IMG/VR virus record: IMGVR_UViG_3300028654_000024
Coordinates: 1-49,553 of that record
Origin: a virus
DNA: 49,553 nucleotides
Strand: one strand, 5' to 3'
The notes beneath the pieces were generated by a model. That model was not told where the DNA came from. It did not search any database and was given only the letters and a program-made list of their open reading frames with translations. A program made the position numbers and the translations under genes. Positions within the stretch are counted from its first letter, which is position 1. Every line of letters begins with the position of its first letter. Shown here piece by piece: positions 8,181-49,553 of the stretch.

Positions 8181-11100
8181 ATGGCAGTAACACTTAAGAC
8201 TTTTGAGCAATTTGTAGGGGGCATGATCCGCACGATAGTTGCGGAGACTCCTCTTAATGACGTTAACACAGGTTCTGTGCTGTTTACTCTTATCGAGGCC
8301 GTTGCTAGCAACGACTTTGAGAATGCTGCAGCCATCCTTAACGTATTAGAGCTGCTCAACATCGATGTTCTGAGAAACGCGGATCTGGATAACAGAGCTG
8401 CTGACTATGGTCTTACTCGTCTCGTTGCTGTGCAAGCCTCTGGCTTAGTCAACATCATAGATTCGACCATCACCAAGATTAGCACTAGCTTATATCCTAT
8501 TAAGCCAGCACCTATCTCTGGGGACTTAGTCATCAATGTTAACGATGCTAGTCAATGGGCACAAACTGGTCAACTGTATATCGGAAGAGGAACCAACTCA
8601 TTTGAAGGTCCTATTCCTTACACTAGTGTAACTAACAATGTTACATTCTGGACTATCACACTTGGTTCCGCTCTACAAAACAACCACCTCATCTCAGATC
8701 AAGTTATTGATGGTCAAGGTACTAGCGATCGTTTGATTGCAGCTGGTACGGTTGTTCTCATCCCTGCCAACAACATCAACCCTGCAGTTCAGTACTCAGT
8801 ATTGAGAGATGCAGTTATTCCCGCTGGTGAAAGCGAAGTTGATGGTATTGAAGTTCTTGCACTGGTTGCAGGAAGCATCGGTAATGCTTCTATTAACACG
8901 ATTACGTCTTTTGCTAGCTTGCCGTTCACTGGTGCTACTGTAACAAACACATCATCGTTCACCAACGGTTCTGACATTGAGACAGACGATGAGCTGAGAA
9001 ACCGTATCAAGGCTTATCCTTCTACGTTGGCTCGTGGTACTGAAGCTGCTATTCTTGCCGCTATCGATAATTTGTCAGACCCTGTTCAAAACGATCAGAT
9101 TGAATCTGCTGTAGTTACAGAGCCTATTGCTATCGGTCAACCTGCTATCATCTACATCGATGACGGTAGTGGATTTCAACCTACATATGAAGGTCAGTCA
9201 GTAGATAACATCCTCATCAATGCTAACGGTGATGAAGAGTTCTTACAACTTGCTAACTTCCCGCTCCCACGCCCTCAAGTCGTTAACGTTGCGACAGGAC
9301 CATTTTCGATGGTTGATGGCATGGTATTGCGAGTAACGGTCGACGATACTCAAGAGACTATCACGTTCCACACAAGCGATTTCTTAAACATCTCGTCTGC
9401 GACTCTGCCTGAGATTGTTACTGCCATCAACGATCAGTCAACGATCTTTAAAGCTCGTCTTACAAATGAATCAGCTAATCTGTTGATCTACACGACAGCG
9501 TTCGACGCTGAGATCATCCAGGTTTCTAGCATCACAGCAAATGATATTCCGTCTTTGTGGGCAAACACCATCCTTGAGTTCCCTACAAATCAATTCTCTT
9601 CTATTAAGCTGTATCAAAACAACGTACTGCTGAAAGAGAGAGAGAAGTCTGCTACATTAGTAACTGCTCCGTTTAATACATGGAACGTACTGGTAGCAAG
9701 TGACCTTATCCTTAGCGTGGATGGAACACCAGCTCAGGATCAAACATTCAACATCTCTGACTTTGGTGGCAGCAGCTTCTCAGCTCTCTCACTAGATCAG
9801 TGGGTTGCAGTCTTCAACACTAAGTTTGCTGGAGTGAGAGCAACTGCCCTATCTAATGGTGCAATGAGCATCTCATCCAATGGGACTGGTTCTAACTCTG
9901 CTTTGAACGCATTAGGCGGAACGCTGTTGTCTAAATGGTTCCCAGCCGGTGATACGTCATCTGTTGGTCAGAACTCAGACTTCGAGCTGAACAGAGAAAA
10001 TGGTAACCTAAGAATTCTTACTACAATTGTTCGCGGTGATGATATCACTGCTGGAGCAGCTGATACGAAAGGTGCTGTCTACTCTGAAGCTACTCTTTCT
10101 GGTACTTACAATCTATCTATCGATACAGCTAATCGCCCAGCTGTGCTAGTCGTTGTTGCTGACGCCACAAACGTTACAATTAGACCAGTTAATTTGCCAC
10201 TTGCAGGGACGATCACAATTTCTTCGCCTTCTGCCAATGTGATGAGAATCATGTCCAGCTCTGTAAATACATTCCTGGGTGTATTTGCTACGACATATGA
10301 TTATGTGTATATCAGTAACCGTGGTGATGTTGATGGTACTGGATCTGGTACTTGGTTAGACGTTAAAAACTGCGGTCTGTTTAAAGTTATTGCTAAAGGT
10401 AGTCACACCAACCCTGGTGTTGATACGTATGTTGACGTTTTGAATCCCCAAACTGTTGTGGGATCATATACAGTTCAGGATGGAGCGGATATACAAGCGT
10501 TCTACTCTGATAAGTACCCACAAATTTGGAATGGTGCTTCTACGAGCAATCCACCCGCCGCGACTATTCAAAATATCGTTGATAGCATCAACGCTGACAT
10601 CATCAACGTAGATACAAGCATCTTTAAGACCAACTCTATTAAGCTAACGTCTTCTACGGAGTCTGGTGGAAGCATTGCTATCCCTGTGGCTGTAGGAAAC
10701 ATGATTGGTCTGTTTGCTACTGGTCAATCAGAGCTTACTGGCAACCCTTCACATGTTGCTAATAGAACACAATCTCAAGATGACTTCACTTGGTTCAGAT
10801 CTACTCCTCCAGTTGGTGGAACTTTAAACCCAACTGCTGTTTGGTTGGGTCGTTACACTTATACTGATGAAAGAGGTCAGCTAACCGCTGATGCTATCCC
10901 TGGTATCGAAGGTGTTGCTCCTTACAGTGAGATCCTCACTTCTGCTGGTCTGCTGAATACTTCTAAGTTGGTATACGACGATATCATCAATTTCACCAAG
11001 GGTAACAACAAGGGATTGTATCGTTCTATCCGTCAGATCTTGGCTGGAGATCGCGTAGGAACGCAATTTGACTTGCCTACAACGTCTTTAAATCACATCC

Positions 11101-14100
11101 AATCATATGACGAGATCGAGATTGTGGAATCGTTACAATTCAGTGCTAATGACAGCCTGGTTGTAATCGTTGATAATAATCCTGTTGATAATACTATCGA
11201 CATTGCAATGGCTCGTACCGGACAAGTTAACTCTGGTAACCAAGCCCCAGATCCAGGTGCAGGATCGTTCGTTCCTACTGCTAATGCTTTCTCTGCTAAC
11301 GACGCTGACAATGAACCAGGTATCGATTTTGGTAGCCCACAAGTTTGGGGAACTACTCTTAATGGAACTAACTTCAATGATTATAGAGCGTGGTTCAGAG
11401 CTAGAAACTGGTATGTAACTGGTGGAGTTGGAAACTTCAACACTGGTGGAGCTCTCTTGCTCCGTGCTACACAATATGGACCTATCGGCGACAACTTAAG
11501 ATTCGCCATTGACTATCCAACATTGCCGAACACAGCTCCTACATCTGTATATGAAAATGATCCGTTCTGGACACAAGTAACTTACTTGTTTGGTTCTGGA
11601 ACTGCTAGAAACGTGCCGATTACCCCTGGAACTACGTTCCTGGTTACCAATGTTAGTGGCGACGTTTATAGACTTGGATCGTTCACACCAGCTATCAGCC
11701 TTGCAACAGTTCAACCTGGTGATGTTATCAGTATATTGCCGAATGCTGGCGTATCTGCTAATAACTCTGGTCAGTTCAGCATTCTAGCCGTTAATTCTGG
11801 TGCTGGAACCCTTGATATCTATAATCCTAATGCCACACCTACTGCCGTTGCTCAACCTGAGATCGTAACTATCACTACTGGCCCTGATGTAGTTGGAACC
11901 AACTCTTCATTTGCAGTTAACGTAGTTGCCGATATCGCTGGATCGTTAAACGGCACATACTTCTTGTTGGCAGATCAAAATGGAAGCGTTGCCTTCTGGT
12001 TTGATGAAACTGGAACTACTCCTGAACCATCAGGAGCCATAGCAGCAAACAGATCTATCAGAATCCTTAGTGTACAGTCTGGCGACGTTGCCTCTGTCGT
12101 AGCAAGCAAAGTTGCTACTGCAATAGCTAATGATTCAGCATTCAGTGCTGGTATTGCGGGTACTGTAGTTAGTGTTAACATAATTCAAAATGGACCTTAT
12201 GTCATGCCGGGTGTGGTAAATCCACCTGTTGGCGGTCCACAACTTAATACCGCTGCAACTTATGGTATCTTAGCTAATTCAGCTATTACAAACTCTGTTG
12301 GAACTAGCGTAGTTAACGGAAACTTAGGATTGTATCCTGGCACTTCTGTTACCGGTGCTTTCACCGTACATGGTGCTACCAATGTTGCCAATGCTGCAGC
12401 TAACCAAGCTCAACTTGACGCTCTCGCGGCGTATACTGCAGCTAATTCTCATAGCTCTACGAACCTTGGTTACAATGCCCTTGACGGTCACACTGTAACT
12501 GCTGGTTATTACACATTCCCTGCTGGTGATGTTCACTTGGCTCAATCAGGTGCTGGAAACTTCACTATTAGTGGTTCTGCCACTGACGTGTTCGTATTCC
12601 AAGTACCAAGCACCCTTACAACTGGCGCTGGTGGAGTTCCAACCATTACGCTTACTGGTGGAGCTCTTTCTTCTAACGTATATTGGATCGTTGGTTCTTC
12701 TGCAACCATTAACTCAGCAAATGCTGGAATATTCAGAGGAACGATCATTGCAAATGCTAGCATCACAGATACACTTGGTGGAACTGTTGATGGTAGACTG
12801 ATCGCCCTTGGAGCCGCTATTACTTTAAGTCAAGCGACTACTGTAACTGTTCCTGGTGGTTTAACACAAACCAACGGCACAGCTGGTTTCACTGAAGTTC
12901 AAAACTCTATCGGTACTAGTGGTACATCTTTAGATGGTAAGTACTTCACCCTTGAAGATGCTGCAGGAAGCGTTACATTCTGGTTCCAGATCGGCAACGA
13001 TGGAACAGAACGTCCTCTTGATGGTGCTGATAGAGCAGTACCGATCATCACAGTTAACGCTGGGGATAATGCAAACACAGTAGCTATCAGAATTCAACAA
13101 GCTATCACTACAGATGGTAATTTCACTGCATCAGCAACCGGTGACGTTGTTACTGTTACTGATCTAGCTAATGCTGCTAGACCTCTACCTAGTGCTGGAA
13201 CCTCTGGTTTCGCTCTCGCTGTTACACAAGTAGGCAGCAATGGAAACCCTGAGGCAATTGTCATCTCTACATCAGTTACTATCTTCCCGCTGACAGGAAC
13301 CGCTACAAGTGGCATCGCTACTGTTGTAAATGGTAACCAAGCAATGGAAGGACTGGTTGCAATCGGCACTGGAACAGACATTAAGCTTGCAACTCGTGAA
13401 GAACAAGTATCTGTAGCTTTTGGACATGATCCGAACCCGCTGAATAGCTTGAATGCATTTGTTAAGTTCTATGACGGTACTGCATGGGTAATGCAGTTCA
13501 GCAACAACAATCCTAACTTCACATTGAAGTCACCTTTGCAACTTGTTGGTGTAGCTCCCACTGTTTATCAGATGGATACAGCGCCCAACTACGACAGTGC
13601 ATCAGTTGGTGAGATGTTCAAGTTGATTCCTACTACTGTAGCGAACCTAGAACATCAACTCACTCAGAAAGCATTGTCTCAATTGCCTATCGTTGCATCC
13701 GTACAGATTGCTGATAACTTCAGAGAAGTACAGATCAAGTCGTTGCAGGTTGGTTCTGCAGGAGCTGTTGAGGTCGTTGGTGGACGCGCTAATAGTGCAT
13801 CGTTCCCAATCATCAATAGTGCTCAAGTAGATACTGCATTAGGTGAGAACTTCCTTGATGTTAGAGTAGCTGCGTTCCCGGATGCTTTGAGCACTGGCGA
13901 TACAGTTATGCTCAAGAACAACACTGGGGTAGCCCGCCTATCTAGACTTTCAGATACAGACTCTGTAGATGTAGTTGCAGTAAGCGGATCTGTGTTTGAA
14001 TACAGATTCAACCCTAAGCAACTGTTCTTGTCTCAATATGTTAAGTTTGGAATCACCGATGTATCTTCTACATATAGTAGACCCGCTGGAACTGTATGGA

Positions 14101-16373
14101 GATGGACGCATGATGATAGTGGTTCGTTGTATACAGCTACTGATCTAACTTCAGGAGTAGTGAGTCCATTGGTTACTGCTTACACAGCCAACGGTCTTGG
14201 AACACCCGCTAACTTAGTAGACGTATCTTTGAGCAATGGTTCTGTTACTCCACAGAAATTTGAACTCACTGTTATTGGAACACCTTCTCAAGCTGACTAT
14301 TACACATTCCAAAGTGCTTCTGGTGCTACATTTGCTGTGTGGTTCTCTGTTGATGCCAACCTTACTGTTCCCACTGGTTCGACATATCTTGCTGCAACAA
14401 ACAAGATCATGGTCTCAGTATTAAGCAGCTTCACAGAGAATCAAATTGTTGGTGCTTTGGCATCTACATTGAATGGTAATGCTCCATTCACCGCGCAATT
14501 TAGTGGAGCTCAATCATCAGGAGTTACTCTAGCTGATGTCGTTCCTGGTGATATAGTTTATGCATTCGGAACACTCCCTGGATGGGCACAAGGTAATAAG
14601 GTTACCTCAACTGGTGACGGCAATATGTCTGGTTTCCCAGTAATTGCGGTTAACGATGGTTCTATGTACTTTGACGTAGTGAATCCCAATGGTGTTGCTA
14701 TGTCATCTACTGTTATCGGTTCTGGTGGAACAGTACAAGTTACCCCGCCCGCTATCATTAAGTGGACTCTCAGCCATGCTTCTAAAATCAGTGTTGCTCA
14801 AATCGTTGTATCTGGTGGCGTAGCTACCATTACTACAACTGGTGAACATCGTTTGAACGTGGGCGCTACGTTTGATCTCTTCGATAGTGCAGTTGTCCCG
14901 ACTGTCCCAGGAAGCGGTGTCGGAACTGTAGCTACGGTTATAAGCATTAACCAGTTCACATTTGCTACATCTACTGCCAATGGTACTTACTTCGGTGGAG
15001 CTATCTTAGATACAACGAAACAAGTAACTAGATACAGAATTGAATCCCTTGGCTTCAACAGTCTATATAGATTGGTGTATGTCGATGGTGCAGCTCCTCG
15101 CTTCGCTGATAACGGTGTAGCGGTTGACGACATCTTGTTGTTGAACGGCAATACGTTTGACAGTAGAGATACTGGGTCTTTCAGAATCCGCGCCGTAGAC
15201 AATACGACGTTGATCTATCAAGATACTGGTGCTACAGAGCAGATCAATACTAATAACGTTCCATTTAACAATACCAATACCTCTGTAACTTGGACATCAA
15301 GTATCAACACGGTTACTGGTGTTGCAGGAAGTTTTGAGAACTTAGTCTTAGGTGATTCTGTTAAGAAAGCGGAAGACAGCGATAGCTTGTATCTACAGGT
15401 TACAGGATTCTTCGTTGGATTGACTCCTTCTACTGCTGCTGCGGCTACATCTATCACACTTGATGCTGTATATGGTGGCGTGTCTGGTTTGTCACTTGGT
15501 AGCAGCTTTAACATGCACGATGATGTTAACAAGGGTGTTTACTTGCAAGCAGCAAGTGATATTACTATCATCGAAGGTGATTCGATGAGAGATAACGACT
15601 CATTGTTCATCGCTTCGATCTCTGATCCTAACTGGTTCACTATCAACAACACTGGAACCTTTGTAATCCAGAGCGTTGGAACAAGTGCAGACTACAGACC
15701 GTATATCAGAGTGAACAACACAGCGGGTACTGCTAACTCAGATCGTCTAATGGAAGTTGACGTAGCTGGTCTTGTTGTAACTGAAGGTTTGGGTAACGAG
15801 TTTAGTTCTGTTCGTCAGATCAACCACATCGCTATCGATGCTTTCAACAGCAAACAACGCGTAGTGTACTTGACTCCTGCTGATAGAGCATACAAGTTCT
15901 CTCAATCTAATAATTCTCTGCTCAATGCGATGGGTAAGTTGAACTACTCAACAGACGTAGTCAGCGGTATCGATGGATACTTGTACTACACAGGATTGTT
16001 GAAGCGCACTCAGAACACGATTGACGGATTCGAGCCTGATTCTGATACATTCCCTGGATACAGAGCTATCGGAGCTCCGATTGAACTTCTTCCTCCGCTT
16101 ATCAGAAATATCGTTATTTCTATCAGCGTAGTGACGAACAACGGGGTGAATTTAAGTGATATTACTAATGAAATTCAGTCTGCTATTATTAATTACGTTA
16201 ATGGTCTTGGGGTTGGAAATGATGTGATCCTATCTGCGATCATTGCTGCTGTAATGGGAATCAAGGGTGTTCAGTCATGTACTTTCACTACTCCGACTCC
16301 TAGCACGGTCTTCATCCCGATCGCTGACATTGAAAGAGCTTACATACAAGTAAGCGATATCAGCATATCATAA
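8181..16373 (+). CDS. Giant baseplate J-like protein with adhesin insertions and an ice-binding-like domain
   Basis: 2730 residues. The first about 300 residues resemble baseplate J/gp6 proteins (NDVNTGSVLFTLIEAVASND; AVIPAGESEVDGIEVLALVA; IETDDELRNRIKAYPSTLAR). The last about 130 residues (PIELLPPLIRNIVISISVV, then NYVNGLGVGNDVILSAIIAA) look like the J C-terminal domain. P2 gpJ is about 300 residues, so some 2000 residues are inserted. The insert holds a repeated module at about 1250-1345, 1565-1660 and 2028-2110 (for example YFLLADQNGSVAFWF and YFTLEDAAGSVTFWF). Between the first two copies, at residues about 1354-1557, is a DUF3494 ice-binding-like domain. No strong Shine-Dalgarno precedes the ATG; AT-rich -10-like boxes lie at 8160-8170. 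Confidence 0.8.
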   Translation: MAVTLKTFEQFVGGMIRTIVAETPLNDVNTGSVLFTLIEAVASNDFENAAAILNVLELLNIDVLRNADLDNRAADYGLTRLVAVQASGLVNIIDSTITKISTSLYPIKPAPISGDLVINVNDASQWAQTGQLYIGRGTNSFEGPIPYTSVTNNVTFWTITLGSALQNNHLISDQVIDGQGTSDRLIAAGTVVLIPANNINPAVQYSVLRDAVIPAGESEVDGIEVLALVAGSIGNASINTITSFASLPFTGATVTNTSSFTNGSDIETDDELRNRIKAYPSTLARGTEAAILAAIDNLSDPVQNDQIESAVVTEPIAIGQPAIIYIDDGSGFQPTYEGQSVDNILINANGDEEFLQLANFPLPRPQVVNVATGPFSMVDGMVLRVTVDDTQETITFHTSDFLNISSATLPEIVTAINDQSTIFKARLTNESANLLIYTTAFDAEIIQVSSITANDIPSLWANTILEFPTNQFSSIKLYQNNVLLKEREKSATLVTAPFNTWNVLVASDLILSVDGTPAQDQTFNISDFGGSSFSALSLDQWVAVFNTKFAGVRATALSNGAMSISSNGTGSNSALNALGGTLLSKWFPAGDTSSVGQNSDFELNRENGNLRILTTIVRGDDITAGAADTKGAVYSEATLSGTYNLSIDTANRPAVLVVVADATNVTIRPVNLPLAGTITISSPSANVMRIMSSSVNTFLGVFATTYDYVYISNRGDVDGTGSGTWLDVKNCGLFKVIAKGSHTNPGVDTYVDVLNPQTVVGSYTVQDGADIQAFYSDKYPQIWNGASTSNPPAATIQNIVDSINADIINVDTSIFKTNSIKLTSSTESGGSIAIPVAVGNMIGLFATGQSELTGNPSHVANRTQSQDDFTWFRSTPPVGGTLNPTAVWLGRYTYTDERGQLTADAIPGIEGVAPYSEILTSAGLLNTSKLVYDDIINFTKGNNKGLYRSIRQILAGDRVGTQFDLPTTSLNHIQSYDEIEIVESLQFSANDSLVVIVDNNPVDNTIDIAMARTGQVNSGNQAPDPGAGSFVPTANAFSANDADNEPGIDFGSPQVWGTTLNGTNFNDYRAWFRARNWYVTGGVGNFNTGGALLLRATQYGPIGDNLRFAIDYPTLPNTAPTSVYENDPFWTQVTYLFGSGTARNVPITPGTTFLVTNVSGDVYRLGSFTPAISLATVQPGDVISILPNAGVSANNSGQFSILAVNSGAGTLDIYNPNATPTAVAQPEIVTITTGPDVVGTNSSFAVNVVADIAGSLNGTYFLLADQNGSVAFWFDETGTTPEPSGAIAANRSIRILSVQSGDVASVVASKVATAIANDSAFSAGIAGTVVSVNIIQNGPYVMPGVVNPPVGGPQLNTAATYGILANSAITNSVGTSVVNGNLGLYPGTSVTGAFTVHGATNVANAAANQAQLDALAAYTAANSHSSTNLGYNALDGHTVTAGYYTFPAGDVHLAQSGAGNFTISGSATDVFVFQVPSTLTTGAGGVPTITLTGGALSSNVYWIVGSSATINSANAGIFRGTIIANASITDTLGGTVDGRLIALGAAITLSQATTVTVPGGLTQTNGTAGFTEVQNSIGTSGTSLDGKYFTLEDAAGSVTFWFQIGNDGTERPLDGADRAVPIITVNAGDNANTVAIRIQQAITTDGNFTASATGDVVTVTDLANAARPLPSAGTSGFALAVTQVGSNGNPEAIVISTSVTIFPLTGTATSGIATVVNGNQAMEGLVAIGTGTDIKLATREEQVSVAFGHDPNPLNSLNAFVKFYDGTAWVMQFSNNNPNFTLKSPLQLVGVAPTVYQMDTAPNYDSASVGEMFKLIPTTVANLEHQLTQKALSQLPIVASVQIADNFREVQIKSLQVGSAGAVEVVGGRANSASFPIINSAQVDTALGENFLDVRVAAFPDALSTGDTVMLKNNTGVARLSRLSDTDSVDVVAVSGSVFEYRFNPKQLFLSQYVKFGITDVSSTYSRPAGTVWRWTHDDSGSLYTATDLTSGVVSPLVTAYTANGLGTPANLVDVSLSNGSVTPQKFELTVIGTPSQADYYTFQSASGATFAVWFSVDANLTVPTGSTYLAATNKIMVSVLSSFTENQIVGALASTLNGNAPFTAQFSGAQSSGVTLADVVPGDIVYAFGTLPGWAQGNKVTSTGDGNMSGFPVIAVNDGSMYFDVVNPNGVAMSSTVIGSGGTVQVTPPAIIKWTLSHASKISVAQIVVSGGVATITTTGEHRLNVGATFDLFDSAVVPTVPGSGVGTVATVISINQFTFATSTANGTYFGGAILDTTKQVTRYRIESLGFNSLYRLVYVDGAAPRFADNGVAVDDILLLNGNTFDSRDTGSFRIRAVDNTTLIYQDTGATEQINTNNVPFNNTNTSVTWTSSINTVTGVAGSFENLVLGDSVKKAEDSDSLYLQVTGFFVGLTPSTAAAATSITLDAVYGGVSGLSLGSSFNMHDDVNKGVYLQAASDITIIEGDSMRDNDSLFIASISDPNWFTINNTGTFVIQSVGTSADYRPYIRVNNTAGTANSDRLMEVDVAGLVVTEGLGNEFSSVRQINHIAIDAFNSKQRVVYLTPADRAYKFSQSNNSLLNAMGKLNYSTDVVSGIDGYLYYTGLLKRTQNTIDGFEPDSDTFPGYRAIGAPIELLPPLIRNIVISISVVTNNGVNLSDITNEIQSAIINYVNGLGVGNDVILSAIIAAVMGIKGVQSCTFTTPTPSTVFIPIADIERAYIQVSDISIS
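12240..12855 (+). other. DUF3494 (ice-binding-like) domain within the J-like protein
   Basis: Residues about 1354-1557 of the J-like protein carry the order of features typical of DUF3494/Ice_binding (PF11999): the opening AATYGILANSAITNS, then GNLGLYPGTSVTGAF, a helix rich in Ala and Gln (NAAANQAQLDALAAY), TVTAGYYTFPAG, FVFQVPSTLTTGAGG, VYWIVGSSATINS, FRGTIIANASI and GRLIALGAAITLS. Known members form an irregular beta-solenoid capped by a helix; several bind ice, others act as adhesins. The domain is complete here. Ice binding itself is not shown by the sequence. Confidence 0.85.
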
Positions 16374-16381
16374 GGTGATAG

Positions 16382-18283
16382 ATGGCAGCCAACAAGACAA
16401 AAACTGATAGACTACACGATCAGCTGAATCCTTTCTTCAATACAAGAAACAACCCAAATTGGGCTGGTCTTATTGATGCTATTGGTACTCAGGATCAGTT
16501 TGTGGCAGATCTTATTGTCAGCGTTGCTGAGCAGTTTTTCATTAAGACGGCTAATAGACCGTATCTTGATAGATTGGGTGCCAACGTATTCGTTAACCGC
16601 CCAAAGTTCATTGGGATGGACGATACGACGTTCAGACAGTATATCCCTGTTCTTGCGTATCAACCGAAACAGGTAAAACACATCATCGATGTTCTTCTCG
16701 ACATCTTCTTCTTTAAGCAATCAACTACGGCCCACGTACAGAGTGCTCAAGCTGAGCCTTTCAATCTAGTTGACGGTTGGGAACTGCAGTACACAGTAGA
16801 CGGGTTCAAACAAGATACCGTTATCTTCACTGCTGGTGATTTTGCTGACATTACTCAAGCCACTGCTCAAGAAGTAGCTGCCGTTATCAACAGACAGACA
16901 ACTAACAGCTTCGCTATTGCCCAAAACAACCCTGTTACCAAACAAACTGTGATTCAGTTGTTTACCGATACCATCGGAGCAAAGGGATCTGTCACTGTTA
17001 CTGGCGGGCGTGCTAACATAGCCTTCCAGTTTGATGGCTTTATCAATGCCGCAGCCAACAGCAATGATGTTCAATGGACCGCAACTAAAGTTGGGGACGT
17101 GATGACCTTCCAGTGGACTGGCGGCAATACGCCTAACCTATTCGCTGTGCAAGTTGGAGACACTTTCATAAGTGATATTCCTGGGTCTTCTGGAAACCTG
17201 AACAACAAGGGCTCTTTTGTTATTACGAGCGTTAACTTAAGCAATAACTCCTTTACCTTTAAGAACTTGTTTGGTCTACCAGGAACATTCACACAAACTA
17301 GCTCTCTGCAGTCTAAATTCATCTCTGATTATCGTGCTGTTGTGTGGACTAATAACCCCAACAGAGCCGTAGCATGGGAAGTTACACCTGGACAGTTCAC
17401 GGTTGAGATGCCTACGTCTCCCCCAGTTGTTCGTCGTGCTCTCGGTGGATCTGCACACATCAATGGTGTGGAAAATGTGATGATGAATAGGGTCAGCGAT
17501 ACTCAGCTTACTCTAGATAGTGTTAACAACTGGCCCGCTAGTGGAACGTTCTTACTACAAGAACAAAATACGATCATTGCTTCAAACGCGACTACATTAC
17601 AGAACACACAGTTTATCAGTGTTGAGACAAGATATACATACACAAGCATCTCTGGGAATGACCTGGTAGGAATTAGCCCAAATCTTCCGCCAGCAGCTGT
17701 TTTGAATGGACCTCCGGGACTTGCTAACTCCGGTTCGCTAGTCTTACTTGAAGACGCTGTTCCGGCTAGCATCTCTGGCATCAAGGGACCTTATGTGTGG
17801 GATCTGAACGCTGCTTTTGTGTTGTCATCGCTTACAGGCAACCTCACTCAGATCATAAACGCAGGACAAAGCTTGAAAATTATCAACATTGGCCCCAATA
17901 ACCTGGATGCAGGTGGTGGTCAACTGATATTCGACTTCGGTACAGCTTTTCAAGAAGGTCCAGTGAGATACTTATTTAAACCTTCTGCGAACACCATAGC
18001 TATTGATCCAGCTTACATCTTCCTAAACGATCACACCGTTGGGTCTGCTGTAACTGCTATAAGAAGCAAGGGGCCACATGCTATGAGCGGCCTTGGAACT
18101 GAGTTTGCTCCATATATCACAGATCCGACAGTGGCCCGTGACATATTAGAGGCCTTGATAGAAGAAGTGAAGAGTGTGGGGATTTTTGTAGAGTTCTTGA
18201 TAAGATATCCAGAGCAACTCTACGGCACCTTGGATGTATATGATCAACAAGGGCTTGGAGCAGGAGCTCCCTTTAATAGTTAA
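16382..18283 (+). CDS. Baseplate/tail protein following the J-like protein (gpI position)
   Basis: 633 residues, 8 bases after the J-like gene, the position held by gpI-type or wedge proteins. The N-terminal about 120 residues are helical and polar (NPFFNTRNNPNWAGLIDAIG, then RPYLDRLGANVFVNRPKF), a pattern seen in baseplate proteins that bracket the wedge. Residues about 140-230 contain a beta module (VIFTAGDFADITQATAQEVA) that resembles one in the J-like protein (TFHTSDFLNISSATLPEIV), suggesting shared origin. The C-terminus is again helical (DPTVARDILEALIEEVKSVG) and resembles the ends of baseplate attachment proteins. The exact family is not identified. Confidence 0.6.
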   Translation: MAANKTKTDRLHDQLNPFFNTRNNPNWAGLIDAIGTQDQFVADLIVSVAEQFFIKTANRPYLDRLGANVFVNRPKFIGMDDTTFRQYIPVLAYQPKQVKHIIDVLLDIFFFKQSTTAHVQSAQAEPFNLVDGWELQYTVDGFKQDTVIFTAGDFADITQATAQEVAAVINRQTTNSFAIAQNNPVTKQTVIQLFTDTIGAKGSVTVTGGRANIAFQFDGFINAAANSNDVQWTATKVGDVMTFQWTGGNTPNLFAVQVGDTFISDIPGSSGNLNNKGSFVITSVNLSNNSFTFKNLFGLPGTFTQTSSLQSKFISDYRAVVWTNNPNRAVAWEVTPGQFTVEMPTSPPVVRRALGGSAHINGVENVMMNRVSDTQLTLDSVNNWPASGTFLLQEQNTIIASNATTLQNTQFISVETRYTYTSISGNDLVGISPNLPPAAVLNGPPGLANSGSLVLLEDAVPASISGIKGPYVWDLNAAFVLSSLTGNLTQIINAGQSLKIINIGPNNLDAGGGQLIFDFGTAFQEGPVRYLFKPSANTIAIDPAYIFLNDHTVGSAVTAIRSKGPHAMSGLGTEFAPYITDPTVARDILEALIEEVKSVGIFVEFLIRYPEQLYGTLDVYDQQGLGAGAPFNS

Positions 18284-18332: not shown

Positions 18333-21300
18333 ATGGCAGTTCTTGGTCGCCTACTTTTAGCCAGCGGAGAAAGATTAGACTTAGCAGATATATTGAGTAT
18401 CGACTCATATACTGCTGGTGACTTTAAGTACTTACTTCAAGGCCTTATCGGTAACTCGAACCCCCTTATTCTTAAGGGCTTCGAGGTCATCAATCCTGGC
18501 GCGGCTCTTGGTACGCAAAACATCTCTATCAGCATTGCTGATGCCGTTGTTCTTTACCCTACTTCTGATGCTGGTCCGTTCTATGTTGGTTTGCCACAAG
18601 GTAACATCAACGCTCAACCTCTCATCCCTGAGCTTGTTCAGAACGCCACTAACTACGTTTACTTAACTCTAACTACCTTTGATACATCGCAGGACTCTAG
18701 ATCATTCTGGGATCCCGACCTTAACGGTGGTAGTGGTGGTGAGTTTACTCAAGATGTAAATACTGAGTCCGCACTTGCTGTACAAGTAGGTGTATCTACT
18801 GCATCGTTCCCTACCAACACGATCCCGATCTGTAAAGTTGTCATGGGTACGACGATTACGTCTATCCAAGATGCTAGAGAGATGATGTTCCGCCTTGGAA
18901 CTGGTGGACTGTCTCCGAATCCGTTTAATCGTTTTTCATGGCCTAGTCTTCCGACTTCTTCGTATCAAAGAACTGAAGCTCCAGGAACTATCACTTCTGG
19001 TGCTCAACCTAATCCCTTTGAAGGTGCTGACAAAAACATCAGTAATCTGAAAGCATGGATGGACGCTGTTATGTCCAAACTTGCAGAATTAGGTGGAACT
19101 ACTTATTGGTATGATGACGTCTCGACTTTCAACCTAGTTAACTTGTTCATGGATACTGAAGGTTCAGTTATCTCCTCAACAGGAATCTGGACACATTCAG
19201 CTACTATCCCTGGACATTTGTCTTGGTCAGCACCCATCTTCATCAATGTTCTGTTCGATCCACGTACATATGAGATCGATGGACCTGGAAGCGTACAACT
19301 TGCCGATGGACAAGTAGCATATATAAGTCTGAACCGTCATCAACCTGTCAATGGTTCTGATTTACCTCTTTCATTTGTTAATGATGCATCTTACGTAAAT
19401 GGTGCCGTTGGGTATTTCGCCAATCTGAATATTGGCGACTGGGTTGGCAACATCGTTGATCCTACGCAGAACATGGCACAGGTTGTGCAGTTCTTTGACA
19501 GCTTGAACGGAACTGGTTCTGTAACCTCTCCTGCACTTGCTGTTTCTATTAGTATTGCTAGCCCTTATCTTGGACCTACAGCTTCAAATTTAGCTGTCTT
19601 CGATCAAGGTGTTTACACAACAAGCGATGTTGTAGTCTCTTACACAAATACAGCAGCTTTAACAGCGGCTGGTGGAAACTTCTTCTGGCTGGCATACCGC
19701 GATGACAACGTTGAATCTATCAATGGTGCTTATGCGTTCTTCAGCGGAACAATCCCAGGAACATCTACGGCGGTATTGATTACTGCCAACAATCCTGGTG
19801 TAGCTGGTAACGCTATTTCGTTGGTGTTCAATGGATCTAACACAATCACAGCTGCTATTGCAACTTGGAATGCTGCTCATCCTACTAACCTAGTAACATT
19901 GACTAGTGGTAACGGTACACAAGTACCTTCCGCTGGAACAACACTAGTTTCTGGTGGTATTGATGGAAGTATCGTAGCAACAACGCTTGCTATCAATATC
20001 ACTACGAACGATGGATCTAGAGCTTTAGTTACGAGCAATCCGCCCAACAATCTTGCGGCTGGTCAACGTATCACTATCTCTGGAACAACGCACTACAACG
20101 GCGTTCAACAGGTCATTCAGATTGTTTCGCCTACGCAGTTCTATATTTCTCAAACGGCAGTGCAAGCTGTCCCTGAATCTGGTTCTGCTTCTTATGCGAC
20201 AGTTACCACTACGACTGCTAATGGTTTCCCAACGGATGCTACTATCAACATCTCAGGAACTAATAATTACGGTGGTAACCCTCTAACTTCTGGAACACTA
20301 ACTAAAACTAGTGGAACAGGTGACGCGACTATATCATTTAGCTCATGGCACGATGGTGGTTCACAGTACACATTCACTGTAGTTAGTGCTAACGCTACTA
20401 TCGGTGCGACGTACACTAACAATGGACAAACGTTCACTGTAATGGATACCATTACGGCTGGAACTACATTAGTTACTGCTAACCTTGGTAACCCTTATCA
20501 GATTGCTGTAATTGATGCTACACACTTTAATATTCCGATCCCTGCTGGAAGCATTGTTCCGCCTCCGTCTGGAAGTCCTCCGTTGGGCACTGCAGCAACA
20601 TATGGTTTGTTAGCTGCTTCTACTATTACGAACTCTGGTTCTTCGATTGATAATGGTGATCTAGGACTTTATCCTGGAACTTCTGTAACAGGATTTCCTC
20701 CTGGTGTTGTTGCAGGTGTTACTAATGTCAACAATGCAGCTGCAATTCAGGCTCAAACAGATGCTCTTGCTGCATACACATTTGGTAATGCTCAAACTGC
20801 CACTCCAATCTCATCTACTCTTGATGGGCAAACGCTTACTCCTGGTGTTTACAGTGAATCTTCTGGTACATTCCATTTAGCCTCATCTGGAACTGGAACC
20901 CTTACCTTGAATGGTGCTGGGGTTTACATCTTTAAGTGCGCAAGCACTCTTACGACTGGTGCCGGTGGTATTCCGATCATCAACCTTACCAACGGAGCCC
21001 TTGCTAAAGACGTCTACTGGATAGTTGGTTCTTCGGCTACAATTAACTCTGGCAGCCCTGGTACGTTCCAAGGAACTATCATTGCAGATGCTAGCATCAC
21101 CAACACATCTGGTGGTGTTGTTAACGGTCGTTTGATAGCCCTTACTGGCGCAGTTACATTAAGTGCTGCTGCAACTATTAATGTTCCCGCTTCTGTTGTT
21201 AATACACCTACAGAGATCTCCGGAACTATTACCCTTGCTGCTATTATCGTGCGTACACAACAAGGTGCTTTCACTCTTTATCAAGATCAAAGTATTCCTA

Positions 21301-24300
21301 TCAACGGTACGTTCAACCAGATTGTTGCGCCTCCGTTTATCAGTGGAACGCCCGATTATGCACTTCCTCCTGGATATAACACCCTATTCGGAACTGCTAA
21401 CTACAACAGCTTGCCATCAGACAGCGTTGTAACTCGTTTAAGTGAACTCACTGGAATGATGGCCGATAAGGCCCAAGATAAGACTGTTAAGTATTTGCCT
21501 ACTGGTTTACAGGCTATTACAAACGTTCCAGGGGCAAGTTCTGCTCGCACTGATCTAACAGGTCAGAATTTGGGTACCGTTGGGACTCTGTCTCCTGGCG
21601 TATACTTCTTTACTTCTTCTGCTGCATTGACAGGAACACTCACACTTGATGCGGGCGGTGATCCTAACGCACAGTGGGTTTTCCAAATTGGAAGTACACT
21701 TACCACTGCATCTAACGCTGTTGTCGCCGTAATCAACGGTGGACAAGCTGGTAACATCTTCTGGCAAGTTGGAAGTAGTGCAACGATCGGCACGAACACT
21801 ATCTTCAAAGGTAACATCTATGCTCAAGCGAGTGTTACAGTTACTACCGGTGCTAGCATAAATGGTAGAGTTAGAGCACTTACCGGTGCAGTAACATTAA
21901 ATAATAATGCTATTGCTATCGCACCTGTATCACCTGGCGTTATAGCAACTACGATGGGAACTGCCATCAATTATGGTGTTATTGCCAACTCGACAATAAC
22001 AAATACTGGTGGAACTGTCATCACTGGAAGTCTGGCATTAAGTCCTGGTACTTCAGTAACAGGATTTCCTCCTGGGACTGTTTCTGGAACACAAGATATT
22101 GCCAACGGTGCAGCAGCACAAGCTCTAACTGATGCCACTGCTACATATACATACTTGGCGGCACTGACTGGTTCTGTTAGTGAATTCCAAGATATTACGT
22201 TCACTCCAGGATCTACACTTACTATCTTGCAACCTGGCAGCCCTGGTAACGCGGTAGTAACTCTACCTAGTTCAGGAACTGGTATTCAACTTGGTATCAA
22301 TCAGTCTGCTTATGTAACTATCGACAGAAACAATCCTTCTACTCCGTCAATCGTAGTGGCAGCTACTAGTTTAGTCCCTGTCGCAGAGAACGTATTTGTT
22401 ATTGCTGCACGTTTGACAAGCACCACTGTTTATATGTGGGACGGCTTCCAAGTCGTGTCTGGTGGAGCTGTACCTGTTCCTGTTTATGACGCCATCGTAG
22501 AAAGCCAAGACCGCAACATGAAACTTGTTGCTGGTGGTGATTGGAGTTGGTCAAGTGGTGGCAGCAGCCCAATAAATTTTGCATCATATGCAAACGCTGG
22601 AGCTGGTGAAGGCGACAGCACAAGTAACACAACTTGGACTGGTGAAGTTTTCACTGCTGCTAGCTCAGGAAGTATCTCTTCTGTTACGCTTTATATGAAC
22701 GGTATTAGTGCGAGTGGAAACCTCACTGCACAAATTTACGCAGCAAGCGGTGGCGTGCCTACTGGCCCATCACTTGGAACAAGTAACGTTGTTAACGCAT
22801 CGGGAGTATATAGCGGTGGACTGCTTCCATTCCCAGCACAGGTGTTCACATTCGGAACTCCTGTAACAGGTATCATAAGCGGCCAACAATATGCTCTGGT
22901 TATAAATAGCTCTGGATTGTCTGGCACTATCTTATATGAACACGCTAGTGCTGTAGTATCTGGTCAGAACGAAATCAAGAGTTCAAACAGTGGAGTTAGC
23001 TGGACAAACACATCTCCATTCAACATGGTCTTCTCTGTTGATGGAGTAATCTCAACTGGTGCTACTCTAGCATGGTCGGCAAACGCCTACCTACAAATTC
23101 CTAGCCTTGCAGAAACAGCAAACACTATCTTGGCTGGAAACGTTGTATTGCCAACAGATCAAAACGTCGCATACGTAGAAGTTAATCGTTCAGGCGCTGG
23201 TGGTAACTTATCAATTACGGTTGCTGATATTGCTGCTGTACCATTGGACTACAATACGGTCATTATTGCTCGAAGAGTTGGAGCTAACGTCATCGTTGGT
23301 AACAACTCAATGCTGTTGATCCCTGGTGAGAGCAAAGCATTGTTCTCTGGCGTTTCAGATCAGAACCTAGCTTTGATCGGAAGCGGTGTCACGGAAGCGA
23401 CTTCTAACCCTGGATATGCAGCTCGCGGATCTGTCAACAGAATTGAGCTAGATACTGAAGGTGCATTAGACGCTATTGCTCGTCACGACAAAGAATTTGA
23501 TAAGTACTTTGGTATGTTCCGCATGATTGCTAAGACTGCAGGAACACAAACAAGAGTTCGTATCACTGGTTCTGATCGTGTAGTATTTACTGGTGAGACA
23601 CTCACTCAGTCAATGAGCTCTTTGAGAGTTTCATTTACTGGCGCTGAAATAGATTTCCACACTGGACAAATCTTCGGTGGGGATGCTACTCTTCCATTGA
23701 GCACAGATTTCTCTACAGCTTTAGGCGTTAACTTCAGTCCTACGACGATCTCAGCAAACCAATACTTGTGGTATTCTATTGCTGCAATTCCTTCTAGCAC
23801 TAACGCAGACAACACTATCAATGTTCAGTTTAACGTGGTTGCTGGTGCTTCTAGTGGTTCAACGACCATTCTTGCAGCTAAACCGCCTCTTGCTGGTGTA
23901 ACACCACTTGGGTATGTTGCTGTTCAAGATAACGGAACTGGTGGATCGGGAACAATCCTTAATCTTGCACAGGTTAACATCGCTCAACTTGGAGTTGGTG
24001 CGGGATCTGGTAGCGGTTCAGGATTACAACAAGTTAGATTGTTTGATCCAGTTTCTACTACATTATCTACGGGAAATCCTGTTACAATCGACGGCGTTTC
24101 AGTTAATGCTGGTGACCTAGTTCTGTTTAACAACTTGGCTTCTGGAAATCATGAGATTTACAAAGCTATTGGGGTTGGAACTAATATCACTAGTTGGCAG
24201 GCACAATTCTTGTTCAATGGTTCTGTTACTCCATCAGGTGGCAACACAGTTGTCATTACTGCTGGTACCAGCTTCGCTGATACTATCGGCGTTTACTCTG

Positions 24301-25199
24301 GAACTACATGGAACTTTAACAACAAAGTTAGATACTTCAATGGTGCTGACTATTGGGAAGTTTCAAGTCTCAACTCTGCAGCATTAGCTAACAATCAAGT
24401 TGCTCAAGCTACCTGGGCGTCGTTTGCATGGCTGGGTTCTGAGAACATGATTGTTGATTACTCTATCCTAAGAGGAACAGCTAAAGAAACTGGAACGATC
24501 ATAATCACTACTGACGGAACTAACGTTGGTCTGGCAACTGCAAACGTTAACACGAACGCTGTTAATGCTGGTATCACGTTCTTTGGGGTTATCTCTGGAT
24601 CTAACATCAACCTGAACTACACGTCAACCAATACTGGTTCTGCTGGTCAGATCAAGTTTGTGTTGAGACGCTGGTCAGATGGTGCTGGTGGTCCTGGTGG
24701 AATTCCTAGCTACAGTGGTGGCGGTGGTGGAGCAGTAACTGGTGCTGGAAGCTCTGGTCAACTTGCTATCTTCACGACAGGAACAAACATCGTTGGAAAC
24801 GTTAACTTGAACTATGACACAACCAACAATCTGTTGGAGTTAGGTTCAGGTGCTAACATAGTACAAACAAGTACACTTCAGAGTGTAGCTATACCGTCTG
24901 GTATCGAGACCAACCAATCGTTGTTCTCATACAGCGATACGTTCACTTTCGCAGTAATTGAATACTCTGTAGTAGAAGGAAGCAATTTCAGAATTGGGAC
25001 CCTACTTATCACTCAAGACGGTGTTTCTACGGTGAACGTAGTAGATACCTTCTCAGAGGTTGGAACTGGAACGGGCTTGACTTTTGCATCTCCTGCTGTT
25101 ACTCATACAATCACCGGTGGCCTTGTAAACATTAAGTTTAATGCCACGAGCTCTAATATCGGCGGTACTTTCAAGTACTCGATGCGCCGTTGGAGTTAA
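18333..25199 (+). CDS. Giant tail fibre/adhesin with ice-binding-like domains
   Basis: 2288 residues, rich in Thr, Ser, Gly, Ala and Asn, with almost no Cys, as expected of a fibre. The N-terminal about 230 residues probably anchor to the baseplate. Later modules include a widespread fibre repeat (AVLITANNPGVAGNAISLVF, about 483-550), a complete DUF3494 domain (about 751-954), a DUF3494 C-terminal half (about 1073-1200) followed by an N-terminal half (about 1208-1280), and a beta-sandwich typical of surface proteins (about 1415-1575). Two copies of a C-terminal fibre module end in RRWS-type motifs (about 2030-2120 and 2190-2288). The protein probably contacts the host surface or another matrix. 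It ends in TAA and has an AGGAG ribosome binding site. Confidence 0.8.
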   Translation: MAVLGRLLLASGERLDLADILSIDSYTAGDFKYLLQGLIGNSNPLILKGFEVINPGAALGTQNISISIADAVVLYPTSDAGPFYVGLPQGNINAQPLIPELVQNATNYVYLTLTTFDTSQDSRSFWDPDLNGGSGGEFTQDVNTESALAVQVGVSTASFPTNTIPICKVVMGTTITSIQDAREMMFRLGTGGLSPNPFNRFSWPSLPTSSYQRTEAPGTITSGAQPNPFEGADKNISNLKAWMDAVMSKLAELGGTTYWYDDVSTFNLVNLFMDTEGSVISSTGIWTHSATIPGHLSWSAPIFINVLFDPRTYEIDGPGSVQLADGQVAYISLNRHQPVNGSDLPLSFVNDASYVNGAVGYFANLNIGDWVGNIVDPTQNMAQVVQFFDSLNGTGSVTSPALAVSISIASPYLGPTASNLAVFDQGVYTTSDVVVSYTNTAALTAAGGNFFWLAYRDDNVESINGAYAFFSGTIPGTSTAVLITANNPGVAGNAISLVFNGSNTITAAIATWNAAHPTNLVTLTSGNGTQVPSAGTTLVSGGIDGSIVATTLAINITTNDGSRALVTSNPPNNLAAGQRITISGTTHYNGVQQVIQIVSPTQFYISQTAVQAVPESGSASYATVTTTTANGFPTDATINISGTNNYGGNPLTSGTLTKTSGTGDATISFSSWHDGGSQYTFTVVSANATIGATYTNNGQTFTVMDTITAGTTLVTANLGNPYQIAVIDATHFNIPIPAGSIVPPPSGSPPLGTAATYGLLAASTITNSGSSIDNGDLGLYPGTSVTGFPPGVVAGVTNVNNAAAIQAQTDALAAYTFGNAQTATPISSTLDGQTLTPGVYSESSGTFHLASSGTGTLTLNGAGVYIFKCASTLTTGAGGIPIINLTNGALAKDVYWIVGSSATINSGSPGTFQGTIIADASITNTSGGVVNGRLIALTGAVTLSAAATINVPASVVNTPTEISGTITLAAIIVRTQQGAFTLYQDQSIPINGTFNQIVAPPFISGTPDYALPPGYNTLFGTANYNSLPSDSVVTRLSELTGMMADKAQDKTVKYLPTGLQAITNVPGASSARTDLTGQNLGTVGTLSPGVYFFTSSAALTGTLTLDAGGDPNAQWVFQIGSTLTTASNAVVAVINGGQAGNIFWQVGSSATIGTNTIFKGNIYAQASVTVTTGASINGRVRALTGAVTLNNNAIAIAPVSPGVIATTMGTAINYGVIANSTITNTGGTVITGSLALSPGTSVTGFPPGTVSGTQDIANGAAAQALTDATATYTYLAALTGSVSEFQDITFTPGSTLTILQPGSPGNAVVTLPSSGTGIQLGINQSAYVTIDRNNPSTPSIVVAATSLVPVAENVFVIAARLTSTTVYMWDGFQVVSGGAVPVPVYDAIVESQDRNMKLVAGGDWSWSSGGSSPINFASYANAGAGEGDSTSNTTWTGEVFTAASSGSISSVTLYMNGISASGNLTAQIYAASGGVPTGPSLGTSNVVNASGVYSGGLLPFPAQVFTFGTPVTGIISGQQYALVINSSGLSGTILYEHASAVVSGQNEIKSSNSGVSWTNTSPFNMVFSVDGVISTGATLAWSANAYLQIPSLAETANTILAGNVVLPTDQNVAYVEVNRSGAGGNLSITVADIAAVPLDYNTVIIARRVGANVIVGNNSMLLIPGESKALFSGVSDQNLALIGSGVTEATSNPGYAARGSVNRIELDTEGALDAIARHDKEFDKYFGMFRMIAKTAGTQTRVRITGSDRVVFTGETLTQSMSSLRVSFTGAEIDFHTGQIFGGDATLPLSTDFSTALGVNFSPTTISANQYLWYSIAAIPSSTNADNTINVQFNVVAGASSGSTTILAAKPPLAGVTPLGYVAVQDNGTGGSGTILNLAQVNIAQLGVGAGSGSGSGLQQVRLFDPVSTTLSTGNPVTIDGVSVNAGDLVLFNNLASGNHEIYKAIGVGTNITSWQAQFLFNGSVTPSGGNTVVITAGTSFADTIGVYSGTTWNFNNKVRYFNGADYWEVSSLNSAALANNQVAQATWASFAWLGSENMIVDYSILRGTAKETGTIIITTDGTNVGLATANVNTNAVNAGITFFGVISGSNINLNYTSTNTGSAGQIKFVLRRWSDGAGGPGGIPSYSGGGGGAVTGAGSSGQLAIFTTGTNIVGNVNLNYDTTNNLLELGSGANIVQTSTLQSVAIPSGIETNQSLFSYSDTFTFAVIEYSVVEGSNFRIGTLLITQDGVSTVNVVDTFSEVGTGTGLTFASPAVTHTITGGLVNIKFNATSSNIGGTFKYSMRRWS
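20584..21195 (+). other. DUF3494 (ice-binding-like) domain in the giant fibre, complete copy
   Basis: Residues about 751-954 show the full DUF3494 order: AATYGLLAASTITNSG, GDLGLYPGTSVTGFPPG, a helix (AAAIQAQTDALAAY), LTPGVYSESSGTFHLA, YIFKCASTLTTGAGGIP, VYWIVGSSATINSGSPG, FQGTIIADASITNTSGG and NGRLIALTGAVTLS. It is much closer to the copy in the J-like protein than to the split copy that follows, suggesting a recent exchange or duplication between the two genes. Confidence 0.85.
21550..22170 (+). other. Split or permuted DUF3494 copy in the giant fibre
   Basis: At 21550-21935 is a classic DUF3494 C-terminal half (LTGQNLGTVGTLSPGVYFF; DPNAQWVFQIGSTLTTASN; NIFWQVGSSATIGTNTIF; NGRVRALTGAVTLNNNAI). 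At 21955-22170 follows an N-terminal half (INYGVIANSTITNTGG; ALSPGTSVTGFPPGTVSG; helix AAAQALTDATATYTY). The order is C-half then N-half, the reverse of the normal domain. The segment before the C-half is an ordinary fibre motif (SELTGMMADKAQDKT). Either a circular permutation or two truncated copies would explain this. Confidence 0.75.
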
Positions 25200-44962: not shown

Positions 44963-45039
44963 GCGTCTATAACTCAGCGGCAGAGTGGTCCGCCTCTAAA
45001 ACGGTACCGACGGGGGTTCGAGTCCCTCTAGACGCTCCA
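44963..45039 (+). tRNA. tRNA, candidate amber suppressor (anticodon CTA)
   Basis: Acceptor stem GCGTCTA (44963-44969) pairs perfectly with TAGACGC (45029-45035), followed by T and an encoded CCA (45037-45039). D arm ACTC-AGCGGCA-GAGT and T arm GGGGG-TTCGAGT-CCCTC are good. The anticodon arm is poor: TCCGC and ACGGT pair in the middle but mismatch at both ends (or pair with one bulge). The only loop with T33 is CTCTAAA (44994-45000), giving anticodon CTA, the same loop as supF. A strict count instead gives TCT (Arg) with C33 and no stem. Two extra bases relative to a standard tRNA are present. The amino acid cannot be deduced. Confidence 0.75.
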
Positions 45040-47886: not shown

Positions 47887-48394
47887 AGAAATTGAATATT
47901 TCGATGTTGTTCCATATTGTTATGATATGTTTACCGATAAGGCTATAGCAGCAGTATCTACTAAAGCGCTCTCACAAATATATCAGTATGCTGTTCAAAC
48001 GCCAACTGGATATGTAAATCATATATGTCCAGTTATGTTTCTTGGCTACATGTGCATAAGAGATGACGTACCAGATGTCATGGAGATACTGGCATCTAAG
48101 ATAAATGAACTTGCAGAGCGAGACTTTATATTGGCTTCTTTGACTTCGATGGCAATAGTCCCATTTGTTGATCCTAGTGATCCGATAACGAATGGTATGC
48201 CAACTTGTTCTATTAATGGCAAGCGAATGTACGCAGTTGTCTCTTACCTCGCTATCCACAAAGAGGGAGAAGAGTATATTAAGGAGTATATGCCTTACTT
48301 GGTAATGCAAGAAGGTGGAGTACCGAAGATTTGTACTAATGAACCGTTAGATCGTTGGGAGAATTGTAATACTTATGATGTATCAGAAGAGTAG
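47867..48394 (+). CDS. Hypothetical protein
   Basis: 175 residues, start inside the methyltransferase-like gene with AAAGGA upstream. Largely helical, with ICPVMFLGYMCIRDDVPDVM and a long central helix (ILASKINELAERDFILASLT), and an acidic C-terminus. No family recognised. It ends in TAG and overlaps the groEL start by about 20 bases. Confidence 0.5.
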   Translation: MSVTPSKEIEYFDVVPYCYDMFTDKAIAAVSTKALSQIYQYAVQTPTGYVNHICPVMFLGYMCIRDDVPDVMEILASKINELAERDFILASLTSMAIVPFVDPSDPITNGMPTCSINGKRMYAVVSYLAIHKEGEEYIKEYMPYLVMQEGGVPKICTNEPLDRWENCNTYDVSEE

Positions 48395-49553
48395 AGCCAA
48401 GAACATAATTTCAGATAAGCAGCAGCTTAAGAGCGTTGTCCTTGATTCTATTGGACGTATGTCCGCTGTAGTTGGACGTACACTAGGTCCTGGTGGAAAT
48501 CCGGTTATCATCGAACGAGACGGACTATCTCCACTTATCACTAAGGACGGAGTTACAGTAGCTCGCAGTCTTGGTATGGATAGATCTGAGGCCAATATCA
48601 TCATTGAAGCCGCTAAAGAGATCTGTGTTAATACAGCTAAACAAGCTGGTGACGGAACTACTACCGCTATCGTTCTCGCTAACTGGTTAGTTAAGTACGG
48701 CCAAGAGTTCATGGAAAAGAACCCCAAATACAATCCACAAAGACTTGTGTTTGATCTACAGGAAGCCTACGAAAGAGTTATTGTTCCTTATCTTAAAGAG
48801 TATTCAGTTAAAGTTGCATCCCCTGAGCAACTCAAGAACGTTGCAACTATCTCTGCTAACGGTGACCTTAAAGTTGCTGAAGCGGTTGTTCAAGCCGTAA
48901 TGAACGCTGGTGACGACGGAACTGTCTTGATCGAAGAAGGTCAAGGTAACATCATGAAGGTTGAAACAGCAGAAGGATACGTAATTACTACTGGTTTGAA
49001 AGACTTGGGAAGTATCGGTCCCATCTTCATCAACGACAAAGCTGGACAGCAATGCAAGATGGACAATGGTGTTGTATTCCTGTATGATGGAACTGTAAAC
49101 GACATTAAAGTCCCTATGGCTATCCAAACAGCTTATGAAGGCACAGAGTTCTATGGAAGTCCAATCATGGTATTGGCTCACGGATTCTCTGATACGGTTC
49201 TGGATGCATTCGCAAAGCAAACTAAATCGGGCGTTTCAGTAGTACCGGTAAAAACCCCCATGTCGGGCTTACCCAACTCACGTTCGCTGTTCTTGTTGGA
49301 TATGTCTGCCTATACTGGTGGAACCGTGTATGATCCTGGAACTGTTGACAAGTTCATGACTGAGGATCGTTCGACTGGTTTTGGTCTTTTCAAGACCGCT
49401 AAAGTTAACATGTATGAAACAGTGATCAACTGTGAAGTTAATATAGACGCCATCAACGAACGTATCGTCGAGCTCAAAGCTATCGGCGAGGCTGCATTCT
49501 CCGAGATGGACAGGATGTTTGTCCGTGCTGCTATTGGTAAACTTACTGGTGGA
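48375..49553 (+). CDS. groEL: Phage GroEL-like chaperonin (3' end outside window)
   Basis: 393 residues visible, open to the last base. Hallmarks of group I chaperonins: GRTLGPGGNPVIIERDGLSP, LITKDGVTVARSL and the ATP-site motif AGDGTTTAIVLA (Asp of GDGTTTA), then DDGTVLIEEGQG. The apical domain (EGYVITTGLKDLGSIGPIF through TGGTVYDPGTVDKF) is diverged. A late FVRAAIGKLTGG matches the start of the second equatorial part. The start is ATG 48375 (or 48378): an in-frame TAG at 48348 limits the start and GGGAG lies upstream. Phage GroEL-like proteins fold late virion proteins and some work without GroES. No groES gene is seen in the window. Confidence 0.92.
   Translation, partial: MMYQKSRAKNIISDKQQLKSVVLDSIGRMSAVVGRTLGPGGNPVIIERDGLSPLITKDGVTVARSLGMDRSEANIIIEAAKEICVNTAKQAGDGTTTAIVLANWLVKYGQEFMEKNPKYNPQRLVFDLQEAYERVIVPYLKEYSVKVASPEQLKNVATISANGDLKVAEAVVQAVMNAGDDGTVLIEEGQGNIMKVETAEGYVITTGLKDLGSIGPIFINDKAGQQCKMDNGVVFLYDGTVNDIKVPMAIQTAYEGTEFYGSPIMVLAHGFSDTVLDAFAKQTKSGVSVVPVKTPMSGLPNSRSLFLLDMSAYTGGTVYDPGTVDKFMTEDRSTGFGLFKTAKVNMYETVINCEVNIDAINERIVELKAIGEAAFSEMDRMFVRAAIGKLTGG

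Follow-up and report, generated by a model that had tools for sequence, protein, structure and literature searches.

DUF3494 ice-binding-type domains in baseplate, fibre and sheath proteins of contractile-tailed phages: a candidate exchangeable adhesion cassette

A DUF3494 domain inside a baseplate J-like protein

The IMG/VR virus record IMGVR_UViG_3300028654_000024 (positions 1 to 49,553; this whole 49,553-nucleotide (nt) stretch is termed the window) carries a block of phage baseplate genes in which a very long J-like wedge protein contains a DUF3494 domain, a member of the PF11999 family of ice-binding proteins. The assignment of the carrier as a J-like protein is based on its matches to PF04865 and PHROG 6 (Table 1) and on its place in the baseplate gene block. 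Its counterpart in Myxococcus phage Mx1 (OR576727), also a J-like protein, shares 30-32% identity with it.

A sequence-only reading of the window had claimed that this protein contains a complete DUF3494 domain, flanked on either side by a copy of a repeated beta module, and had proposed a PF11999 profile search as a check. That search, made with the whole open reading frame (ORF), matches PF11999 (Ice_binding) at amino acids (aa) 1363-1553, covers positions 1-206 of the 208 in the profile (E = 7.5e-33) and scores 114.4 bits against a curated cut-off of 28.7, which places the domain in the family. When the stretch delimited by the earlier reading is searched by itself, E is 3.1e-35. The flanking modules are likewise copies of one another, as had been claimed. 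A chance match can be ruled out by the whole-ORF E value together with the presence of a domain at the identical site in four other phages (L177, L186, L179 and L182). By sequence, antifreeze proteins (6eio, 1e-24; 7bwx, 5e-18) are the closest relatives with a solved structure, and homology to these solved members predicts that the J domain forms a helix-braced, discontinuous, left-handed beta-solenoid.

Table 1. Position of the DUF3494 domains and their carrier genes in the window
Feature	Position	Strand	Evidence
Baseplate J-like (wedge) protein, 2730 aa, domain carrier	8181..16373	+	PF04865 Baseplate_J 3.1e-13; PHROG 6 'baseplate wedge subunit' 1.1e-37
Beta module 1 on the upstream side of the domain (J aa 1248-1345)	11922..12215	+	Module-module comparison
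Complete DUF3494/PF11999 domain, standard order (J aa 1355-1556)	12243..12848	+	Pfam bounds 12267-12839
Beta module 2 on the downstream side of the domain (J aa 1577-1680)	12909..13220	+	38% identical to module 1, E 2e-17
Intervening virion gene, 633 aa, without DUF3494	16382..18283	+	No Pfam match; syntenic in relatives
Tail-fibre-like protein, 2288 aa, second carrier	18333..25199	+	Three PF11999 stretches (E 6e-83); in relatives, orthologs lie after J
Complete DUF3494 domain, standard order (fibre aa 751-950)	20583..21182	+	PF11999 profile
DUF3494 domain in circularly permuted order (fibre aa 1021-1294)	21393..22214	+	C-terminal part, then N-terminal part

Further domains in the tail-fibre gene, one of them circularly permuted

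The sequence-only reading had treated the domain as a feature of the baseplate. This holds for the J-like protein but is too narrow, since the domain is also found on the fibre and, in relatives, on the sheath. Specifically, the window contains three additional PF11999 stretches, all of them in the tail-fibre-like gene that lies next but one after the J gene. One is a complete domain in standard order that is 62-63% identical to the J domain in aa sequence, with 72% nt identity over 247 nt. The other two form a single domain, beginning about 200 nt after the end of the first, whose parts stand in reversed order: positions 21513-21914 match profile positions 73-207, and positions 21978-22184 then match profile positions 1-87. 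Because the sequences that flank this permuted domain are 272 aa apart in the window and only 60 aa apart in a related phage (L013), it too is an insertion.

These parts are not two broken half-domains, as the C-terminal and N-terminal parts are joined by a short linker and the same order recurs in other phages. The C-then-N order is present in at least 15 other phage domains, most of them from sheaths, and in none of 80 cellular domains, a set picked by similarity that does not amount to a survey. The resulting total of 16 permuted phage domains is an undercount, because the sheaths L022, L032, L168 and L169 were scored as standard order when the profile extended weakly into conserved sheath sequence. 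Once the parts are reassembled, the binding-face residues of the permuted domain are of the standard kind (the bottom coil was left unaligned). In AnpIBP, the coils of the solenoid stack in the order b1-b6-b5-b4-b3-b2, so that the C-terminal coil lies beside the N-terminal coil (PMC7277481). Given this published fold and the observed order of the parts, a short C-to-N linker would yield a continuous coil order with new ends at the start of the long helix. A literature search on ice binding and circular permutation returned nothing on DUF3494 by title and abstract.

Carriers among related phages

A profile built from these domains identified at least 80 viral loci, with 93 ORFs bearing the domain. 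In contractile-tail phages the carriers are tail sheath proteins (PHROG 279), J-like proteins, fibres and shorter proteins. The sheath-borne domains are nearly always permuted, and the sheath profile matches on both sides of the inserted domain (PHROG 279, 1.4e-21 to 1.7e-25 in L028, L063 and L005). Whole-contig searches revealed sheath, J and fibre copies together within one phage in G001, G002, G003 and also G004 (171 kb). The sequence-only reading knew of no DUF3494 domain in a baseplate wedge protein, and our searches agree: neither a paper nor a sequenced isolate phage turned up that shows this arrangement, and a PF11999-type domain has no match among 50,697 phage records. Phage Mx1, whose J-like and sheath proteins are both homologous (30-32% identity), carries PF11999 nowhere in its genome.

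Several further proteins were observed among these loci. A different sheath-type protein (L048 8951-12202; 1083 aa; PHROG 2839) bears DUF3494 in standard order, which suggests a separate capture of the domain. In L034, L040, L027, L069 and L083, the domain occurs in proteins of 520-613 aa of unknown function, permuted in the first two, that by eye appear to have chitobiase-type C-terminal repeats. In the Mx1 sheath (L173 1555-4413; 953 aa), some 300 aa without a Pfam match look beta-rich and lie at approximately the site where its relatives carry DUF3494. This sheath site may be a general display position.

Insertion, gain and loss

Orthologs of the J-like protein, most of them 47-52% identical over the flanking segments, lack the domain, and in these proteins modules 1 and 2 are directly adjacent. 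The domain is therefore a clean accessory insertion that is dispensable for baseplate assembly. Sheaths likewise occur in two lengths, 938-961 aa with the domain versus about 715-742 aa without it. In one such pair (L204 and L168) the flanks are 73-78% identical, and the sheaths L167-L169 are 70-74% identical to each other over their full length. Orthologs both with and without the domain are what is expected of accessory adhesion domains.

Among the closest relatives, a contig either has the domain in all three of sheath, J and fibre or lacks it altogether; contigs of 176,504 and 176,837 bp contain no PF11999. Where both J and fibre can be read over the relevant regions, the domain is present in both proteins of five phages, the window among them, and in neither protein of five others, a count that is inflated by shared ancestry.

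In a quick tree of J proteins, domain-less lineages separate the J protein of the window from the group formed by L177, L186, L179 and L182. This topology calls for gains at one site or for several losses, and presence in J must have changed three times or more. The tree of the domains themselves does not follow that of the carriers, as copies from J, fibre, sheath and small proteins interleave; this indicates that the module moves between virion genes. For example, the standard-order fibre domain of the window groups with the J-type domain of L007, and the permuted copy falls outside the main phage clade, with the L063 sheath and L053. That clade holds 48 domains with a Shimodaira-Hasegawa-like approximate likelihood ratio test (SH-aLRT) value of 83, and 47 of these with a value of 94. 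A single donor was considered and rejected, since none of the cellular domains sampled is close enough to the main clade to be its donor (the best of them is about 50% identical) and the permuted copy of the window lies elsewhere.

Binding face, selection and habitat

Face columns were mapped by alignment from the published ice-binding segments of AnpIBP (PMC7277481). In the J domain, column 4 reads T1391, T1370, T1548, T1529, T1509, T1480 and then H1452 (threonine at six of seven positions), and column 2 reads S-A-A-S-S-T-D. The domain thus has the stacked, small, hydroxylated and uncharged B-face of the family, apart from the one histidine and one aspartate. It lacks the all-alanine trough in column 2 that is typical of polar marine and glacier members. 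Some ice binders dispense with this trough, EfcIBP having Ser/Thr/Ala there (PMC12337378). In the J domain, S1506 and T1509 correspond to S153 and T156 of AnpIBP, and the AnpIBP mutants S153Y and T156Y were inactive.

Across 77 non-redundant phage domains, conservation is higher in the face columns (0.63) than elsewhere (0.43), and none of 20,000 random column sets reached the face value. In nine pairs, nonsynonymous divergence (dN) is about 0.13-0.31 against a synonymous divergence (dS) above 1.3, which is near saturation. The domain is under purifying selection.

The domain-less orthologs L189-L192, of which L191 is a fragment that stops before the insertion site, come from Lake Tanganyika samples at 24-28 C (IMG 3300021424, 3300020221, 3300020603 and 3300020200; PMC8245535). 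This origin fits a role in ice binding, for one habitat only.

Other features of the window

A tRNA gene with anticodon CTA lies at 44963-45039 (ARAGORN, tRNA-Pyl; Rfam tRNA, 46 bits) and is a possible amber suppressor. Six of the 29 plus-strand genes that were checked end in TAG. One of these encodes a phage lysozyme (41411-41944; PF00959, 2.5e-40), where readthrough would add a charged tail of 62 aa; the other TAG-ending genes would gain 5-9 aa only. A suppression-dependent long form of the lysozyme is possible. Also, a GroEL/Cpn60-type chaperonin gene (48375-49553; PF00118, 8e-22) runs off the end of the contig.

Discussion

The identity of the domain, its insertion, its spread over three virion proteins, its all-or-none presence in the closest relatives, its conserved face and purifying selection on it are observed; surface display, adhesion and the nature of the ligand we infer, with fold and exposure predicted by homology. 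The explanation we favour, with a probability of roughly 0.55, is that the DUF3494 beta-solenoid serves as an accessory, exchangeable adhesion cassette displayed on the virion. With the solenoid set between two beta modules of the J wedge protein, and with related copies in the fibre and in the sheath of relatives, a single type of flat binding face, rich in hydroxyl groups, would be repeated many times along the contractile tail. Free virions would bind weakly and multivalently to an extended surface, which could be ice or some hydroxylated polymer from host cells, soil or peat. Such binding would keep virions near their hosts or protect them during freeze-thaw.

Ice is the single most likely ligand, narrowly ahead of polysaccharide, although we put it at a little under an even chance. 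It is doubtful that these phages form an ice-adhesive lineage in the fullest sense, in which large contractile-tailed phages would coat sheath, baseplate and fibres with DUF3494 as a means of holding on to ice or of surviving freezing, the permuted domain with its continuous coil order would have evolved for display within sheath and fibre, and the coat would be gained and lost as a set.

Several points weigh against these interpretations. Cellular relatives from mesophilic soil actinobacteria show the same face, and the face therefore cannot separate ice from another ligand. The bottom row of the face consists of Asp and His, which are poor ice-binding residues. A Ser/Ala/Thr column 2 has been linked to less icy habitats and possibly to weaker ice binding, and DUF3494 occurs in ice-free habitats also (PMC12337378). 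Habitats were established for the four domain-less contigs only. Finally, the outlying L033 breaks the all-or-none pattern, having the domain in its J copies and a fibre homologue without it.

The alternative that survives best, and one to be taken seriously if not preferred, is that phages took up the face to bind hydroxylated surfaces in general, in the way that many phage tails use Ig-like and other modules, so that virions would adhere to host cells, exopolysaccharide or soil polymers rather than ice. The soil- and plant-associated sources of cellular relatives with the same face (among them Curtobacterium and Streptomyces) and the departure of column 2 from the all-alanine polar type are in its favour. 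To our knowledge, ice binding is the only biochemical activity that has been tested in the DUF3494 family, which counts against this proposal, as does the resemblance in alignment of the stacked-threonine face to that of EfcIBP, a measured ice binder (PMC7277481, PMC12337378).

A purely structural role, in which the solenoid would bind no ligand and would act in its three carrier proteins as a spacer or stabiliser, is improbable. The location of the domain between beta modules of a very long, repeat-rich protein and the beta-rich stretch at about the same place in the Mx1 sheath would suit a spacer. However, J, sheath and fibre orthologs exist without the domain, its face columns are more conserved than its remainder, and a spacer would be needless in three different proteins at once. 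Slightly less probable still is a neutral or selfish module that spreads by recombination among virion genes with no benefit to the phage: the discordant domain and carrier trees and the repeated changes of presence in J are consistent with this, but purifying selection, the conserved face and the coordinated presence in three genes are not. Protection of the infected host from freezing, as proposed for Arctic marine viruses in which three viral PF11999 genes are listed as cryoprotection auxiliary metabolic genes (AMGs) (PMC11515562), is ruled out for this lineage by architecture, the domains here being fused within sheath, baseplate and fibre proteins rather than encoded as free secreted proteins.

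The J domain resembles the ice-binding proteins of the family, EfcIBP (6eio), AnpIBP1a (7bwx), FfIBP (4nu2) and TisIBP6 (3vn3), in its full-length match to the PF11999 profile and in its conserved face positions, including S153-S-A-T156 of AnpIBP. In contrast to these proteins, the phage copies are internal domains of virion proteins and are not secreted, and one fibre copy and most sheath copies are circularly permuted. The arrangement also resembles bacterial ice adhesins such as SfIBP of Shewanella, where the binding domain sits on a long beta-rich extender protein; MpIBP of Marinomonas holds bacteria to ice in the same way, but with another fold. Here, the domain is on a virus tail, in many copies via the sheath in relatives.

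Accessory adhesion domains on phage tails are already known, as is the DUF3494 domain itself. Ig-like and other optional domains, reportedly described by Fraser in 2006 and Barr in 2013, are said to occur in several structural proteins, to move by recombination and to be thought weak surface binders. DUF3494 is alike in its optional insertion into several structural proteins and in its movement by recombination; it differs in having a solenoid rather than an Ig fold, in its permuted copies and in its coordinated presence on sheath, baseplate and fibre. The Arctic marine viral contigs carry PF11999 as well, there read as host genes and here as structural parts of the virion (PMC11515562); S-SKS1, a relative named in that study, has no PF11999 match and was rejected as a relative.

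As far as our searches reach, three things are new: the use of DUF3494 on baseplate, fibre and sheath, the circular permutation of the domain and its coordinated occurrence across these parts. Natural circular permutants of DUF3494 would be new material for work on ice-binding proteins. An ice-binding-type family serves here as a virion part rather than a host gene, and PF11999 matches in viromes should be checked for their carrier gene before they are called cryoprotection AMGs. Furthermore, since some of these related phages bear the domain on all three tail parts and others on none, its role in attachment to ice, cells or soil and in survival of freezing is open to direct test.
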